From NCBI RefSeq assembly GCF_022808935.1, contig NZ_JAKZFR010000003.1, forward strand, positions 62,001 to 126,000: 64,000 nt of DNA, read 5' to 3'. Source of the DNA: Geothrix sp. SG200. Lineage in GTDB: Bacteria > Acidobacteriota > Holophagae > Holophagales > Holophagaceae. Every line of letters begins with the position of its first letter. The first letter of the stretch is position 1. The translations under genes were made by a program, and so were the position numbers. Positions 7,150 to 26,711 of this stretch are shown piece after piece. Under the pieces are notes generated by a model. That model was not told where the DNA came from. It was given only the letters and a program-made list of their open reading frames with translations, and did no database searches.

Positions 7150-8486
7150 TCGTCCTCAAGTTCGGCGGAAGCAGCGTGGCCGACGCGGCCTGCATGCGGC
7201 AGGTGGCGACGCTCGTGAAGGCGGCCCTTCCCCAGTCGCCCCTGGTGGTTCTCTCGGCCATGGGCAAGACCACCAACGGGCTCTTCGATGCCGCCAAGAC
7301 CGCGGAGGCCGGGGACCTGGGCGGCGCCATGGAGCGGCAGCGGAAGCTGATGACCCATCACCGCAAGGCCGCGGAGGACCTCTTCGCGGGGGAGGTGCCC
7401 GAGGCGCTGGATGCGGACCTGACGGAGCTCTTCGGAGAGCTGGAGCTGCTGCTCCGCGGCGTCGCCATGCTGCGCGAGCTGAGCCCCCGCAGCATGGACG
7501 CCATCGCCTCCATCGGCGAGCGGCTGTCCACGCGGATCTTCGCGGCCTTCGTGGACGGCGCCTGGGTGGATGCCCGGACGGTGCTCCGCACCGACGCCAC
7601 CTTCGGCGAGGCCACGCCCCAGCCGGAAGCCATCCGGGCCCTGGCCGAGGCCCATCTGAAGCCCCGCGTGGGGCCCGGCCGCTCCGTCATCACCCAGGGC
7701 TACATCGGCGCCACCGAGGACGGCCTCACCACTACCCTTGGCCGCGGCGGCAGTGACTTCTCGGCCGCACTCTTCGGCGCGGCCCTGGGGGCGGCCGAGG
7801 TCCAGATCTGGACGGACGTGGAAGGCGTGCTCACCTGCGATCCCCGCATCGTCCCCGAGGCCCTGCCCATCCCTGAGCTGAGCTTCGCGGAGGCCGCCGA
7901 GCTGGCGGCCTTCGGCGCCAAGGTGCTCCACCCGGCCACCATCCAGCCCGCCGTGGAAGCGCGCATTCCCGTCACGGTGCGGCACACCCAGAAGCCAGAG
8001 GGCCGCTTCACCACCATCTCCGCCGAGGTCCGCACGGGCCGGCCCATCACGGCCCTGGCCAGCCGCGGCCCCGTGACGGTGCTCACGGTGAGCAGCTCCC
8101 GCATGCTGGCCCAGAGCGGCTTCCTGGCCCGCCTCTTCGAGGTGTTCGGGCGGCGCGGCGTGAGCGTCGACCTGGTGGCCACCGCCGAGGTGAGCGTCTC
8201 CCTCACGGTGGAGGCGGACATGCCCCTGAAGGCCCTCATCAAGGACCTCTCGGCCTTCGCCACGGTGGAGGTGAACGAGAACCGGGCCATCATCGCCGCC
8301 GTGGGCGAGCGCCTCAAGTCCACGCCGGGCCTGGGCGCGCGCCTGCTCTCGGCCCTGGGCGACATCAACGTGGAGATGATCAGCATGGGCGCCAACGAGA
8401 TCAACCTGAGCCTCGTGGTGCGCCGGGAGCAGGGCGACGAGGCCCTGCGCCGCCTCCACAAAGTGCTGGTGGGAGGGGCGCCGTGA
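7146..8486 (+). CDS. lysC: Aspartokinase (monofunctional, with ACT domains)
   Basis: The 446-residue enzyme phosphorylates aspartate, the committed step of the aspartate family pathway. It begins with the kinase motif MIVLKFGGSSV. The region GRGGSDFSAALFGAAL binds substrate, and the last 150 residues (from about GPVTVLTVSSSRML) form tandem ACT domains that usually bind lysine or threonine for feedback control. It overlaps asd and dapB by four bases each. Control therefore probably acts at both the RNA level (riboswitch) and the enzyme level. Confidence 0.95.
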   Translation: MIVLKFGGSSVADAACMRQVATLVKAALPQSPLVVLSAMGKTTNGLFDAAKTAEAGDLGGAMERQRKLMTHHRKAAEDLFAGEVPEALDADLTELFGELELLLRGVAMLRELSPRSMDAIASIGERLSTRIFAAFVDGAWVDARTVLRTDATFGEATPQPEAIRALAEAHLKPRVGPGRSVITQGYIGATEDGLTTTLGRGGSDFSAALFGAALGAAEVQIWTDVEGVLTCDPRIVPEALPIPELSFAEAAELAAFGAKVLHPATIQPAVEARIPVTVRHTQKPEGRFTTISAEVRTGRPITALASRGPVTVLTVSSSRMLAQSGFLARLFEVFGRRGVSVDLVATAEVSVSLTVEADMPLKALIKDLSAFATVEVNENRAIIAAVGERLKSTPGLGARLLSALGDINVEMISMGANEINLSLVVRREQGDEALRRLHKVLVGGAP

Positions 8487-9211
8487 CGCTCCGCCTCGGG
8501 CTCTTCGGGAAGGGCCGCCTGGGCTCGGCCATCGCCGCCGAGGCCGGGCCGGCCCTGGCCTGGCACGCCGGCCGGGGCGAGACCCCGGACGCCGGGGCCG
8601 GCGTGGCCAATGTGGTCATCGATGCCAGTGTGGCCGAGGCCGTGGAGGCGCACCTGGCCTGGGCCCTGGAGACAGGCACGGACCTGGTGATCGGCACCAC
8701 CGGCTGGTCCATGCCCGATCTCGAGGCCCGGGTCGCCGGCCGAATCGGCGTGCTGACCGCCTCGAACTTCTCCCTGGCGGTGGCCCTGATGGCCCGGATG
8801 GCCACCGTGCTGGGCCGCTTCGCCGCCCTGGATCCCGCCCGGGATCCCTACCTGGCGGAGCATCACCACCGCCTCAAGGCCGATGCGCCGTCGGGTACCG
8901 CCAAGACCCTGGCGGCGGCCCTGATGGCCGGCTGCCCCCGCAAGACCGAGTGGACCCTTGGCGCCCCGGCGGCCCACCAGCTGAGCCTGGGCGTGGTGCG
9001 GGCCGGCGCCGAGTTCGGCACACACACCGTGGGCCTGGACGCCCCGGCCGAGGTGCTGGAGCTCACGCACCGGGCCCGCTCCCGCGTACCCTTCGCGCAG
9101 GGCGCCCTGGCGGCCGCCCAGTGGCTCCATGGCCGCAAGGGCGTCTTCACCATGGACGACCTCGCCGCCGATCTGCTCGACCCCCTCTTTGTGTTTGGAG
9201 ACAGACCATGA
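8483..9211 (+). CDS. dapB: 4-hydroxy-tetrahydrodipicolinate reductase
   Basis: The 242-residue enzyme reduces hydroxy-tetrahydrodipicolinate to tetrahydrodipicolinate with NAD(P)H. It has a short nucleotide-binding start (LRLGLFGKGRLGSAIA), the loop GTTGWS, the ASNFSLAVALM stretch, the catalytic EHHHRLKADAPSGTA segment and the late AGAEFGTHTVGL motif. It is somewhat shorter than the usual 260-270 residues, mainly in the N-terminal domain. It overlaps lysC and dapA by ATGA. Confidence 0.93.
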   Translation: MTLRLGLFGKGRLGSAIAAEAGPALAWHAGRGETPDAGAGVANVVIDASVAEAVEAHLAWALETGTDLVIGTTGWSMPDLEARVAGRIGVLTASNFSLAVALMARMATVLGRFAALDPARDPYLAEHHHRLKADAPSGTAKTLAAALMAGCPRKTEWTLGAPAAHQLSLGVVRAGAEFGTHTVGLDAPAEVLELTHRARSRVPFAQGALAAAQWLHGRKGVFTMDDLAADLLDPLFVFGDRP

Positions 9212-10110
9212 CCCTCGACCTCTCCGGCCTTGCCGTCGCCCTGGCCACGCCGTTCACGGCCTCGGGCGAGGTGGACCTGCCCGCCTACCGCAAGCTGGTG
9301 CGCCACGTGGCGGCCGGCGGCGCGGACTTCCTCGTGCCCCTGGGCTCCACGGGCGAGGCCGCCACCATCCTCGACGCCGAGCGGGACGCCATCATCTCGG
9401 CCTGCCTCGAGGAGGCCGGGGGCCGCCCGGTGGTGGTGGGCACGGGCCACAACGCCACGCGCCAGGCCGCGGCGATGACGAAGCGGGCCCAGGCTCTCGG
9501 CGCCCAGGGGGCCCTGGTGGTGACGCCCTACTACAACAAGCCCACGCCGGACGGCCTCGTGGCCCACTTCGCCGCCGTGGCCGAGGCTGCGCCAGGGCTG
9601 CCGATCATCGCCTACAACGTGCCGGGCCGCACCGGGCTGAACGTGACTCCGCCGGTTCTGGCGCGCCTCTGGGAGAACCCCCAAGTGGTGGCCGTGAAGG
9701 AGAGCAGCGGCAACCTGGCGCAGATCGCGGAAATCGTCCGCCAGCTGCCCAAGGGGAAGGTCCTGCTGTCGGGCGACGACAACCTGGCCGTGGCCTCCAT
9801 CGCCGTGGGGGCCTCGGGCCTGATCTCGGTGCTTGGGAACGCGCTGCCCCGGGAGACCGCGGCCCTGGTCGCCGCCGCCCGTCGGGGGGATCGCAAGGAG
9901 GCCCTCCGCCTCCACCAGCAGCTGCTGCCCCTCATGGACGCCCTGTTCCTCGAGAGCAACCCCATCCCGCTGAAGGCCGCCCTCCGCATGCTGGGCCTCT
10001 GCGGGGAAGGCCTGCGCCTGCCCCTGGTCCCCGCCGTCGCCGCCACGCGCACCCGCCTGGCCGAGGCCCTCTGCCTCTCCACCGAGGGCACCTTCCCCGG
10101 AGTGATCTGA
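9208..10110 (+). CDS. dapA: 4-hydroxy-tetrahydrodipicolinate synthase
   Basis: The 300-residue TIM-barrel aldolase condenses pyruvate with aspartate semialdehyde. Key elements are the GSTGEAATI loop, the tyrosine motif TPYYNKP, the PGRTG loop, and the Schiff-base lysine in VVAVKESSGN. The ATG overlapping the dapB stop is chosen because it gives the family N-terminus (LSGLAVALATPF). An upstream in-frame extension is the shadow of dapB. The dapD ATG overlaps its stop (TGATG). Confidence 0.95.
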   Translation: MTLDLSGLAVALATPFTASGEVDLPAYRKLVRHVAAGGADFLVPLGSTGEAATILDAERDAIISACLEEAGGRPVVVGTGHNATRQAAAMTKRAQALGAQGALVVTPYYNKPTPDGLVAHFAAVAEAAPGLPIIAYNVPGRTGLNVTPPVLARLWENPQVVAVKESSGNLAQIAEIVRQLPKGKVLLSGDDNLAVASIAVGASGLISVLGNALPRETAALVAAARRGDRKEALRLHQQLLPLMDALFLESNPIPLKAALRMLGLCGEGLRLPLVPAVAATRTRLAEALCLSTEGTFPGVI

Positions 10111-10931
10111 TGGTCGTCGACCTCGGTACCATCCACCGCTTCTTCAGCCGGCCCCCCGAGGACCTGGCCGCCGATCCCGAAGCGCCGGCCATGCACCAGG
10201 TGCTTCTCTCCGCCCTGGAGAGCGGGATCGTGCGGGCCGCCGAGCAGCAGCCCGACGGCAGCTGGCAGGCCAACCCCTGGGTGAAGCAGGCCATCCTCTG
10301 CGGCTTCCGCCGGACGAACATCGTGGAGATGCCCGGGCCCGGCTTTCCCATGTTCGACAAGACCGCCTATCCGGCCCGCCACTTCGGGTTGGAGGACGGC
10401 GTGCGACTCGTGCCCGGTGGCTCCTCCGTGCGGCGCGGCGCCCACATCGCCAAGGGCGTGGTGATCATGCCGCCGGCCTATGTGAACGTGGGCGCCTTCG
10501 TGGACGAGGGCACCATGGTGGACAGCCACGCCCTGGTGGGCAGCTGTGCCCAGATTGGCAAGCGGGTGCACCTCAGCGCCGCCGCCCAGATCGGGGGCGT
10601 GCTGGAGCCCGCGGGCGCCCGGCCCGTGGTGGTGGAAGACGACGCCTTCGTGGGCGGCCTCGTGGGCCTCTTCGAGGGCATCGTCGTGCGGAAGCGGGCT
10701 GTCCTGGCCTCGGGCGTGGTCATCACCGGCAGCACGGTGATCTACGACCTGGTGCATGGCCGCGAGCTGCGCCAGGAGGTGCCGGAAGGCGCCGTGGTGG
10801 TGCCGGGTTCGCGCCCGGCCTCGGGCGACTATGCCAAGGCTCACGGACTCCAGGTATCGGCCCCCTGTATCGTGAAGTACCGCGACGACAGGACCGACGC
10901 GGCCACCGCCCTGGAACGGGCGCTGAGGTAG
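10110..10931 (+). CDS. dapD: 2,3,4,5-tetrahydrodipicolinate N-succinyltransferase
   Basis: The 273-residue enzyme transfers succinate from succinyl-CoA to tetrahydrodipicolinate. The C-terminal half shows the left-handed beta-helix hexapeptide pattern (GAHIAKGVVIMPPAYVNVGA, GTMVDSHALVGSCAQIGKRV) and the substrate-site residues around GGVLEP and DDAFVGG. Its presence decides that this organism uses the succinylase branch rather than the direct LL-DAP aminotransferase route. The start is coupled to dapA by TGATG. Confidence 0.96.
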   Translation: MVVDLGTIHRFFSRPPEDLAADPEAPAMHQVLLSALESGIVRAAEQQPDGSWQANPWVKQAILCGFRRTNIVEMPGPGFPMFDKTAYPARHFGLEDGVRLVPGGSSVRRGAHIAKGVVIMPPAYVNVGAFVDEGTMVDSHALVGSCAQIGKRVHLSAAAQIGGVLEPAGARPVVVEDDAFVGGLVGLFEGIVVRKRAVLASGVVITGSTVIYDLVHGRELRQEVPEGAVVVPGSRPASGDYAKAHGLQVSAPCIVKYRDDRTDAATALERALR

Positions 10932-21561: not shown

Positions 21562-23100
<1,539 letters not shown>

Positions 23101-23245
23101 GGCGGCTCCAGGTTCGGGCAACGGGCAGCGGGCAACGGATCGCGTGGGGATCGGCTGCCAGTTTAACCGACCGCGAGGGGGCCCCGCAGGCCGGGCCTGG
23201 GCCCTCGGGGCCCCAAGGAGGGTCATGCCAGGGGGATGGAAGCTC

Positions 23246-25105
23246 CTAGCGGATGGGCCGGGGCCGGGTCATGGCCTCCAGGCTGAAGGCCTCGTCCAGC
23301 TCGGCGGGGCTCAGGTAGGCCTTGCGGAGGATGATCTCGCGCACGGCCACGCCGGTCTCCAGGGCCTCCTTGGCCACCTCGGTGGCCCGCTTGTAGCCGA
23401 TGGCCGGCATGATGGCGGTGACGATGCCGATGCTGTGCTCCACCAGGTCGCGGCAGCGGTCCCGGTTGGCGGTGACGCCCACGATGCACTTGGTGGTGAG
23501 GACGTTCACGGCGGCCGTCAGGGTGCGGAGGCTGGTGGCCAGGCTGTAGGCCAGCACGGGCTCCATCACGTTGAGCTGCAGCTGGCCGGCCTCTGCCGCC
23601 AGGGTGATGGTCAGGTCGTTGCCGATGACCGAGTAGGCCACCTGGTTCACCACCTCGGGGATCACCGGGTTCACCTTGCCGGGCATGATGCTGCTGCCGG
23701 GCTGCATGGGGGGCAGGTTGATCTCACCGAAGCCGCAGCGGGGGCCGCTGCTGAGCAGGCGAAGGTCGTTGCACATCTTGCTGAGCTTCACGGCGGCGCG
23801 CTTGACGGCGCCGGAGAACATGACGAAGGCGCCGGTGTCCGGGGTGGCCTCCACGAGGTTCTCGGCCAGGACGATCTCCAGGCCCGTGATCTTCCGCAGC
23901 TCCTCCACCACCGTCTCCGGGTAGCTCGGGTCGGCGCAGATGCCCGTGCCGATGGCCGTGCCGCCCATGTTCACCTCGAGGAAGAGCCGGGCGCACTCCT
24001 GGAGCCGCAGGATATCCTCGCCGGTGGTGACGGCAAAGGCCTCGAACTCCTGGCCCAGAGTCATCGGCACCGCGTCCTGGAGCTGGGTGCGGCCCATCTT
24101 GATGACATCGGCGAACTCGTGGCCCTTGGCGTGCAGGGCGGCCTTCAGGCGCTCCATGGCGTCCAGCAGGTTGCGCAGCATGAAGATGGTGCTCAGGCGC
24201 AGGGCCGTGGGGTAGACGTCGTTGGTGCTCTGGCCCAGGTTCACGTGGTCGTTGGGATGGCAGTGGGCGTACTCGCCGCGCTTGTGCCCCAGCAGCTCCA
24301 GGGCGCGGTTGGCGATGACTTCGTTGGCGTTCATGTTGGTGGACGTACCCGCGCCGCCCTGAACCATGTCCGTGGGGAAGTGGCCGTGCCAGTGGCCGTC
24401 GATGATCTCCTGCGAAGCGCGGTCGATGGCCGCCGCGATGGCCAGGTCCAGCAGGCCCAGCTTCGCGTTGGCGCGAGCCGCCGCCTGCTTGACCATGGCC
24501 AGGGCGCGGATCATGGCCGGGAAGTGGCTGGTGGGCGTGCCCGTGATGGGGAAGTTGTGGACGGCGCGCAGGGTCTGGACGCCGAAGAGGGCGTCCTCGG
24601 GCACGTCCAGGGGGCCGAGGAGGTCCGATTCCCGCCGCGTCTGGCCGCTGGCGTAGGCCTGCTCGCGCCCGGTGCGCGGGGTGGCGGAGTACAGGATCCG
24701 CCGATGCAGCACGTTGGCGACCTTGCTGAGCACGGCGATGGCCGCGGCGCCGTCCTGGCCGAGGCTCTGGAGGACGGTCTCGCGGTCCAGGTCCAGGAGC
24801 ACGGCCGGGGTGAGCGCGGTGGCCGTGGCCGAGTGGGGGCTGGGCGCCAGGAAGGACTGCTCGCCGGCCACGTCGCCGGGGCCCAAGATCACGACGGGCT
24901 CGGGCCCGTCGCCGTTGTCCCGGGTGATCTCGACGCGGCCCTCCGCGATGACCGTGGCGCCCTTGCGGGGGTCGCCTTGGGTGAAGAGGCGGGTGTCCGC
25001 GGGCACTTCCCTCCGGCGGGCGGCCTTGGCGATCAGGCCCAGGTCGGGGTCGGACAGGCCCGAGAAGATTTCGCAGCGGCGCAGGACAGACGTGATGGCA
25101 TCCAT
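23246..25105 (-). CDS. Cyclic-nucleotide-binding domain fused to aspartate ammonia-lyase
   Basis: The 619-residue protein is about 150 residues longer than normal aspartase. Residues 1-120 form a cNMP-binding domain like that of CRP ([51 protein letters not shown]). The rest is a complete fumarate-lyase-family aspartase with [15 protein letters not shown], the [11 protein letters not shown] segment and the signature [11 protein letters not shown]. It converts aspartate to fumarate and ammonia. The arrangement suggests control of aspartate breakdown by a nucleotide or another small ligand, which is inference. The cNMP domain lacks a DNA-binding helix. It consumes the same aspartate that feeds the lysine operon. 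Confidence 0.92.
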
Positions 25106-25218: not shown

Positions 25219-25866
25219 CTATCGCCCGCTCTTTTTCCAATCCGCCAGGAAGCCTTCCACGCCCTTGTCGGTGAGGGGGTGCCTCAGCATCTGGTCGAAG
25301 ACCTTGGTGGGGATGGTGGCCACGTGGGCGCCGGCCAGGGCCGCGTCGGTGACGTGGCGGGGCTGGCGGATAGAGGCGGCCAGGCACTGGGTGTCGAACT
25401 CGTAGTTCTCGAAGATGGCCACGATCTCGCGGATGAGCTCCATGCCGTCGAGGTTGATGTCGTCCAGGCGGCCCACGAAGGGGCTCACGTAGGTGGCGCC
25501 GGCCTTGGCGGCCATGAGGGCCTGGGTGGCGCTGAAGCAGAGGGTCACATTGGTGTTGATGCCCTCGGAGGTCAGGGCCTTGCAGGCCTTGAGGCCCTCG
25601 GCGATGAGGGGCAGCTTCACCACCACGTTCTCGTGGATCTTGGCCAGCTTCAGGCCCTCCTGGATCATGGCGGGGGCCTCCAGGCCGATGACCTCGGCGC
25701 TGATGGGGCCGTCCACGATGTCGCAGATCTCGGCGATGATCGCCTCGAAGGGCTTGCCCGTCTCCTTGGCGATGAGGCTGGGGTTGGTGGTCACCCCGTC
25801 CAGCACGCCCAGGGCGTTGATGCGCTTGATCTCGTCGATGTTGGCGGTGTCGATGAAAAACTGCAT
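25219..25866 (-). CDS. tal: Transaldolase (short, fructose-6-phosphate aldolase-like type)
   Basis: The 215-residue TIM-barrel enzyme has the Schiff-base lysine K84 in [11 protein letters not shown], the start [14 protein letters not shown] and the motif [11 protein letters not shown]. The subfamily includes short transaldolases of the pentose-phosphate pathway and fructose-6-phosphate aldolases; sequence inspection cannot separate the two firmly. It follows the aspartase start by about 110 bases on the same strand but lies upstream, and is divergent from thyX. Confidence 0.9.
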
Positions 25867-26030
25867 GGTCTTCTCCGAAAGAGGTGGGTCGAATGAGGGA
25901 CCGGCGCCAGTGAAGTTCACGCCCTTCCAGCCCTGTGCCCCGAATGGGGCGAAGAAATACGGCGTGGGGGCTCCCGGCGGACCTTCCATTCTCCCAGGCA
26001 TGGCGGGAAGCTGGAAGCGCGGAGTCTTCC

Positions 26031-26711
26031 ATGACACATATCGAGATCAAGGTGCTGGACAAGGGGTTCGTCCGCCTCATCGACCACATGGGGTCGGACC
26101 TGTCGGTGGTGAACGCGGCGCGGGTGTCCTTCGGCAAGCGGAAGGAGGCCTTCGAGGCGGGGGACGCCAAGCTGATCGGCTACCTGGCGGAACATGAGCA
26201 CACCTCGCCCTTCCGCCACACGGCCATGACCCTGCACGTGAAGGCGCCCATCTTCGTGTTCCGGCAGTGGATGAAGCACCGCATCGGCTCGGAGTTCAAC
26301 GAGATCAGCGGCCGCTACGTGGAGTTCCCCGAGGACGAGTTCTTCGTGCCGGCGGCCTTCCGGAAGCAGGCGAAGGTGAACAAGCAGGGCAGCGAGGGGG
26401 AGATCGACGCGGCGAACCGCGCCCGGGCCATGGAGAGCTACCTGGAGAGCTGCCGGGGGGCCGTGACCCACTACAAGGAGCTGCTCTCCCTGGGCGTCTG
26501 CCGCGAGCAGGCCCGATGCGTGCTGCCCGTGGGCCTCTACTCCGAGGTCTACTGGACCGTGAGCCTCCAGGCGGTGGCCCACTTCATCCGTTTGCGGACG
26601 GACAGCCATGCCCAGTGGGAGATCCAGCAGTACGCCGCCGCGGTGCGCCAGGTGGTGGAGCCCCTCTTCCCCGTGGGCCTCAAGGCCCTGCTCGCGGACC
26701 GCCAGGGATGA
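26031..26711 (+). CDS. thyX: FAD-dependent thymidylate synthase ThyX
   Basis: The 226-residue flavoenzyme methylates dUMP to dTMP using methylenetetrahydrofolate and NADPH. The ThyX signature appears as [15 protein letters not shown], with lysine in place of the first arginine of the usual RHRxxSxNExSxRY. FAD contacts [10 protein letters not shown] and the C-terminal [13 protein letters not shown] are present. No thyA is seen in the window. The ATG is preferred over an upstream in-frame one because family homology begins with [12 protein letters not shown]. Its stop overlaps the aminotransferase start. Confidence 0.94.

Follow-up and report, generated by a model that had tools for sequence, protein, structure and literature searches.

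An aspartase fused to a cyclic nucleotide-binding domain with an altered pocket in Geothrix and other bacteria

The window analysed here is a 64,000-nucleotide stretch of the Geothrix sp. SG200 genome (contig NZ_JAKZFR010000003.1, positions 62,001 to 126,000), and it contains a gene in which a cyclic nucleotide-binding (CNB) domain precedes a full-length aspartase (Table 1). The source organism lies near Geothrix terrae, whose copy (L052) is 98% identical over its first 178 residues. A first-pass annotation had placed the gene at 23246-25105, which proved exact, and the strand, which it had not given, is minus. Using Pfam we located cNMP_binding at residues 32-115, Lyase_1 at 165-495 and FumaraseC_C at 561-614, all above their cut-offs, and the cNMP_binding score (PF00027; 65.8 bits against a cut-off of 27.5) places the N-terminal part in the CNB superfamily. 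Likewise, the NCBIfam model for aspartate ammonia-lyase, NF008909, gave 726 bits against a cut-off of 510, which assigns the enzyme to this subfamily. The aspA equivalog TIGR00839 was narrowly missed (668.9 against 681.2 bits), with the protein filed under NF008909 instead, and the class II fumarase models fell further below their cut-offs (TIGR00979, 472.9 against 664.75; NF009089, 398.4 against 840). Pfam detected no DNA-binding helix-turn-helix (HTH) domain after helix C of the CNB domain, where a disordered linker is found instead, and the protein is therefore not a regulator of the CRP/FNR type. These results bear out the earlier description of a full aspartase behind a CRP-like ligand domain without a DNA-binding helix, although the ligand domain, put there at about 120 residues, comes closer to 140 once helix C is counted. 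The downstream carboxyltransferase is nearest to methylmalonyl-CoA decarboxylase alpha but below the cut-off of that model (TIGR01117, 779.7 against 998.8 bits). No second match to the fusion protein was found in the Geothrix sp. SG200 genome at E 1e-10.

Table 1. Position of the CNB-aspartase gene, its parts and its neighbours in the window
Feature	Position	Strand	Basis or detail
CNB-aspartase fusion gene	23246-25105	-	ATG 25103-25105, TAG 23246-23248; 619 aa plus stop
CNB domain with helix C, residues 1-141	24683-25105	-	Pfam core 32-115; AlphaFold; match to GlxR 3r6s
Arg47 codon, beta2-beta3 loop, place of PKA Gly169	24965-24967	-	gap-free alignment to solved cGMP-kinase CNB domains
Gly81-Glu82 codons, start of phosphate-binding cassette	24860-24865	-	conservation across fusions
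His91 codon, place of PKA Arg209	24833-24835	-	conservation across fusions
Flexible linker, residues 142-155	24641-24682	-	pLDDT <50 over most
Aspartase domain, residues 156-619	23249-24640	-	NF008909 above cut-off; structural match to 6wng
SS loop with Ser471, Lys477 and Asn479	23669-23695	-	all three in 81/81 non-redundant fusions
Upstream neighbour, fructose-6-phosphate aldolase / transaldolase	25219-26037	-	TIGR00875 above cut-off
Downstream neighbour, carboxyltransferase	21562-23226	-	PF01039; start probably inside the listed frame

An AlphaFold model built on an alignment of 38 fused proteins (mean pLDDT 83.9) displayed a CNB beta barrel, helix C at residues 119-140, a stretch with pLDDT below 50 at 138-153, and then the aspartase fold. 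The aspartase part was 60% identical to the solved aspartase 6wng (Z 51.6, rmsd 1.9 over 465 residues), and solved aspartases match the fusion from about residue 152-157 on, with no CNB part in any of them among the matches listed. When the CNB part was modelled separately (AlphaFold, residues 1-178, 30 sequences; mean pLDDT 84.6) it matched GlxR 3r6s with Z 18.9 and an rmsd of 2.0 over 138 residues, and among the 50 matches listed, at Z 17.2-18.9, were GlxR, mycobacterial CRP, PKG and other CNB domains, with 3d0s at Z 18.5. Analysis of the same model with Foldseek gave apo GlxR as the top match, and 4byy at E 4.4e-13.

The fusion is genuine and not a chance join or an assembly artefact, as it recurs in 29 of 36 other genomes of the genus and, at ~55% identity, in 8 of 9 genomes of a second family of the class. 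Among the 29, one genome (G011) has two matches on one contig, one (G021) has the gene split over two contigs and one (G023) has an internal deletion, while the ninth genome of the second family (G051) shows no more than a C-terminal fragment plus another, weaker match. The fusion is absent from seven genomes of the genus. A plain aspartase of 56-61% identity was present in five of these seven and in none of the 29 with the fusion (Fisher p 5.6e-5 in a post hoc contrast among related, non-independent genomes; p 0.001 when a second plain form is counted too), and two genus genomes (G011, G015) carry the fusion plus another plain form at 51-52% identity. The absence of the plain aspartase where the fusion is present suggests that the fused enzyme does the job of the plain aspartase in the genus.

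To sample more widely we used a profile made of the CNB domain and the first aspartase residues, scoring the best candidates of a first look and taking the phylum from the title of the genome at the centre of each sample. In the window's own phylum at least 45 of 396 sampled genomes contained the fusion, with fusions at E 3.2e-44 or better and the next CNB proteins at E 6.5e-30 or worse. Fusions were also found in at least 52 of 200 genomes around Gemmatimonadetes SH_69_11 (one matching only from position 61 on), at least 3 of 247 around Desulfobacterales HSG2, at least 2 of 240 around Verrucomicrobium BvORR106 (G080 and G1104, two copies each) and at least 14 of 296 around Salinivirgaceae STF2_13 of the Bacteroidota, the last along with one CNB-only match. 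From the phylum and Gemmatimonadota fusion rows 20 regions each were fetched besides earlier ones, and 38 of 39 fetched profile loci continue through the aspartase. A scan of titled genomes gave 40 fusions (L052-L091) among the best 80 of 154 loci, some cut by a contig end or carrying a deletion, under titles that include Acidobacteria, Gemmatimonadota, Deltaproteobacteria, Ignavibacteriota, Verrucomicrobium, Rhodospirillales and others; many of these loci are metagenome bins with titles taken as given, and one of the two scan patterns touches the phosphate-binding cassette. Leaving out a second copy of the window's locus (L004), matches that started beyond position 49 or ended before 401, and a locus with the CNB domain alone (L206), 135 fusion rows, in which many scan loci duplicate genomes numbered in the G series, were reduced to 81 at <90% identity and to 31 at <70%.

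In all 81 non-redundant fusions T254, S293, T294, N295, T340, S471, K477 and N479 are present. These match the catalytic residues T101, S140, T141, N142, T187, S318, K324 and N326 of AspB, respectively, of which S318, K324 and N326 lie in the SS loop. The position taken as His188 of AspB is Gln in 76 fusions and Glu in five. The aspartase part is thus complete, its catalytic motifs are intact and it is a predicted aspartase.

The pocket of the CNB domain is altered at two positions. In the account of PKA given by Kannan et al. (2007, PMC2246266), the cAMP phosphate is held by Arg209 of the phosphate-binding cassette, a residue that co-evolves with Gly169; the latter lies in the beta2-beta3 loop, which couples to the B/C helix. 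In the fusion His91 occupies the Arg209 place and Arg47, in a beta2-beta3 loop read QGDPRK, the Gly169 place, so that the Arg209/Gly169 pair of a CNB domain with a canonical cAMP cassette is absent. A profile against solved cGMP-kinase CNB domains was gap-free at both R47 and H91, and the transfer from this alignment to the PKA numbering of Arg209 and Gly169 is partly our assumption. Position 91 is His in 79 of the 81 fusions and Tyr in two (L078, L089), and position 47 is Arg in 79, the exceptions being one with Cys (L074) and one counted as such despite an out-of-frame N-terminal part (L225). The Gly-Glu start of the cassette is present, with Gly81 in 71 and Glu82 in 78 of the 81, and in cAMP-binding domains the Glu of this pair holds the ribose (2'-OH). 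Among fusions at <70% identity Arg47 was present in 31/31 and His91 in 29/31, and two profile-gathered samples gave 20/20 for both residues and 37/38 for Arg47 with 38/38 for His91, respectively, the underlying profile using no pattern yet itself holding the Arg and His residues. The CNB domain has diverged to a mean pairwise identity of 30% among the 81 fusions (lowest 13%), and its best conserved residues are G56, R136, H91, R47 and E82. That pocket positions are retained while the domain diverges speaks for a functional site and against a spacer. R136 is no hallmark of the fusions, as it is Arg in 19 of 24 CNB domains without an aspartase and the other five are gapped there.

These 24 domains, which comprise 20 of the best-scoring in the phylum, three of the window's genome and one in L151, carry Arg at position 91 in 20, Gly at position 47 in 17, His at position 91 in two, and the Arg/His pair in one. 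In the window's genome the other CNB proteins have Gly/Arg (L001, L003), Ala/Arg (L002) and Val/Ile (L005). As the fusions have Arg/His whereas CNB domains without an aspartase mostly have Gly/Arg, also within the window's genome, the change tracks the fusion and not the organism. The idea that the pair marks aspartase fusions alone was dropped, since a CNB protein without an aspartase (L165/L185) shares it. In L185 (4376-4879, plus strand; genome G259 of the same phylum) this is a stand-alone protein of 168 residues with no aspartase near it in the 10 kb read, and its neighbours are a GreA/Rnk-like protein, a GntR regulator, a 4Fe-4S protein and an aldehyde ferredoxin oxidoreductase. A further locus (L188:3804-6650, plus strand; genome G107) contains a 949-residue frame with two tandem CNB domains.

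Distances between CNB domains and between aspartase domains were strongly correlated across the 81 fusions (Mantel r 0.85, with 0 of 2000 permutations as high), which indicates joint inheritance of the two parts. However, the fused aspartases do not form a single clade, which was rejected with AU p 0.00016 on 40 fused and 26 plain rows. There were eight changes between fused and plain in a first tree (41 fused, 48 plain; without L070, which lies at a contig end) and six in a reduced tree (40 fused, 26 plain; without 11 long-branch rows, one of them the fused L080, and 12 close relatives). These quick trees do not separate gains from losses, and long branches are present in the first. None of the frames of the 48 plain relatives contained a CNB domain, and together with the rejection of a single clade this argues that the domain has been repeatedly lost or exchanged and is dispensable for catalysis in this enzyme group. 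Given the shared Arg/His pair and the distance correlation, one old fusion followed by several losses or transfers appears the more likely history, and repeated joining of the same type of CNB domain to aspartases the less likely.

We propose, with a probability of roughly 0.55, that the protein is an allosterically controlled aspartase whose rebuilt CNB pocket senses a small molecule, which would not be cAMP bound in the standard way. The aspartase part would convert L-aspartate to fumarate and ammonia, or carry out the reverse reaction, and the N-terminal domain is probably its allosteric sensor, taking up a ligand in the usual CNB pocket through an altered set of contacts, with His for the arginine that holds the cAMP phosphate and Arg for the coupling glycine of the beta2-beta3 loop. 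Because these two residues are replaced, the ligand is probably not cAMP held in the ordinary manner; conserved Glu82 speaks for a ligand with a ribose, loss of the arginine speaks against the usual mode of cAMP binding, and Arg47 might provide the missing charge from a different position. Binding would move helix C, and the short linker would pass this movement on to the N-terminal region of the aspartase tetramer, leading to a change in activity, and in this scheme we infer the ligand binding, the activity change, its sign (activation or inhibition) and the tetramer geometry. Counting against the proposal are the Tyr and Cys exceptions in the pocket, the failure of the fused aspartases to form one clade, the plain relatives without a CNB domain, the two genus genomes with both the fusion and a plain form (G011, G015) and the occurrence of the Arg/His pair outside aspartase fusions. 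The first-pass annotation had suggested direct control of the lyase by a cyclic nucleotide or similar ligand. Direct control fits a tightly conserved pocket kept across phyla, and a regulatory reading is likely, but the cyclic-nucleotide part is doubtful and its wording finds no support now that the phosphate arginine is seen to be replaced. Of the phosphate-binding residues on which the annotation had made its idea depend, the arginine has become His in 79/81 fusions, yet the ribose Glu is kept in 78/81, so the pocket may still take a nucleotide.

A domain that does bind cAMP, cGMP or another cyclic mononucleotide, with R47 and H91 standing in for the lost phosphate arginine, would account for the largely kept Gly-Glu pair, with E82 in 78/81, and for a fold like that of solved CNB domains from cAMP- and cGMP-binding proteins. 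We consider this unlikely, as other residues stand in place of both the phosphate arginine and the glycine that co-evolves with it, and of the four further CNB proteins encoded in the window's genome three (L001, L002, L003) keep the Arg. Class III nucleotide cyclase genes (PF00211) were found in 22 of 27 fusion genomes, with two matches in the window's own, which would suit such a ligand, but they were missing from five genomes for which completeness is not given; as PF00211 covers class III cyclases only, these counts neither prove nor exclude cAMP and cAMP supply was dropped as a test.

Other CNB domains with His at the Arg209 place bear on what the pocket might bind. In table 1 of Kannan et al. 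(PMC2246266) the consensus of Flp and FNR, listed as regulators for oxidative stress and oxygen sensing, has Gly-Glu plus His at this place, and in section 10 the His of CooA ligates heme and PDZ-GEF has Met or His. In these parts of PMC2246266 none of the four is presented as a cyclic-nucleotide sensor through that His, which speaks for another ligand or for none. This counts against the sensor proposal, since by analogy with Flp and FNR, as tabulated there, a pocket with Gly-Glu and His may bind no nucleotide and indeed no small ligand at all. The CNB domain could then serve as an oligomerisation, stability or protein-docking module, with R47 and H91 in internal contacts, for example with helix C or the aspartase, and both the His in the Flp and FNR consensus motifs and the location of R47 in a loop that in PKA couples to the B/C helix (PMC2246266, on these points) agree with this. 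We nonetheless judge it improbable, because a cassette Glu kept in 78/81 fusions at a mean identity of 30% is unexpected for a pure spacer. His91 might also be the iron ligand of a heme or redox sensor resembling CooA, in which the His at the Arg209 place ligates heme in section 10 of PMC2246266, and aspartase would then be tied to CO, NO or oxygen. That would be very improbable, as the 81 fusions have no conserved Cys (only at position 11, with 15/81, does Cys occur in more than 8/81) and no second conserved axial ligand was identified among them.

The sensor proposal can be set against several known systems. With AspA (NF008909; 6wng, 1jsw) the fusion has the whole enzyme part, the fold and the catalytic motifs in common, and with CNB domains of CRP/GlxR type (3r6s, 3d0s, 4byy) it shares the fold and the Gly-Glu cassette start. 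Unlike the latter, however, the fusion has no HTH, carries His for the phosphate Arg and Arg in the beta2-beta3 loop, and has an aspartase in place of DNA binding. FNR and Flp, with Gly-Glu and a His at the eleventh cassette place, and CooA, with its His at the Arg209 place, resemble the fusion in the parts of PMC2246266 that treat them. These three are DNA-binding regulators, whereas the fusion is an enzyme without a conserved Cys pattern.

Fusions of CNB domains to enzymes are already known. Mycobacterial Pat is a cAMP-regulated lysine acetyltransferase with a CNB domain before the enzyme, an order it shares with the fusion, but it uses cAMP and its enzyme differs (NF058543, 29.9 bits against a cut-off of 460). 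E. coli aspartase reportedly interacts with GlnB, in work said to be by Schubert and colleagues in 2021; there the nitrogen regulator is a separate PII protein, whereas in the fusion the CNB domain is built in. Our search of open-licence PubMed Central found no paper on an aspartate ammonia-lyase with a cyclic nucleotide-binding domain, none naming both Pfam families and none on Geothrix with aspartate ammonia-lyase; in the matched part of one hit (PMC10463352) aspartase appeared in the reference list only. The domain pair may well stand uncommented in protein databases, and a description of a multi-phylum CNB-aspartase family in which the Arg209 and Gly169 residues are both replaced was not found in open-licence PubMed Central. 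As a tentative extension, Arg47 and His91 could define an undescribed CNB ligand class, a sensor of some metabolite or nucleotide signal distinct from cAMP and cGMP that gates aspartate breakdown directly in at least five phyla (Acidobacteriota, Gemmatimonadota, Bacteroidota, Desulfobacterota and Verrucomicrobiota). The CNB-aspartase is a tangible enzyme on which the ligand of a non-canonical CNB pocket can be sought. If the proposal is true, a ligand would directly control aspartate catabolism, and with it nitrogen release and fumarate supply, in Acidobacteriota, Gemmatimonadota and other groups.

Examination of 69 loci showed the aldolase and the carboxyltransferase beside the fusion only in the genus or under the titles Geothrix, Holophagaceae or Acidobacteria, the Acidobacteria-titled locus with these neighbours (L057) being 88% identical. 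At 11 distant loci, six of 20 neighbour genes fit aspartate or dicarboxylate use, eight belong to other families and six to none. The six are SDF symporters (L076, L077), an Asp/Glu racemase (L076), an SBP_bac_3 solute-binding protein (L077), DcuA/DcuB (L090) and an asparaginase (L088), and they lend support to a function in the use of aspartate. We dropped gene context as a pointer to the ligand, as only the SDF symporters recur (L076, L077) among the 20 neighbours and none names a ligand.

In Verrucomicrobium sp. BvORR106 (L090) the DcuA/DcuB gene is followed by the CNB-aspartase and then directly by a fusion of cNMP_binding, acetate kinase and phosphate propanoyltransferase (PduL) at 7850-10159 on the plus strand, in whose pocket Ala replaces Arg209 and Val replaces Gly169. 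In L207 the CNB-aspartase likewise has next to it a cut frame that shares the CNB motifs of this acetate kinase fusion. The CNB-aspartase may thus be part of a wider set of CNB-controlled anaerobic C4/acetate enzymes, of which the acetate kinase-PduL protein would have another pocket. In an Acidobacteria bin an HD-domain response regulator (HD_5, HD; HD-GYP-like; L071:7856-8836, minus strand) faces the CNB-aspartase tail-to-tail.
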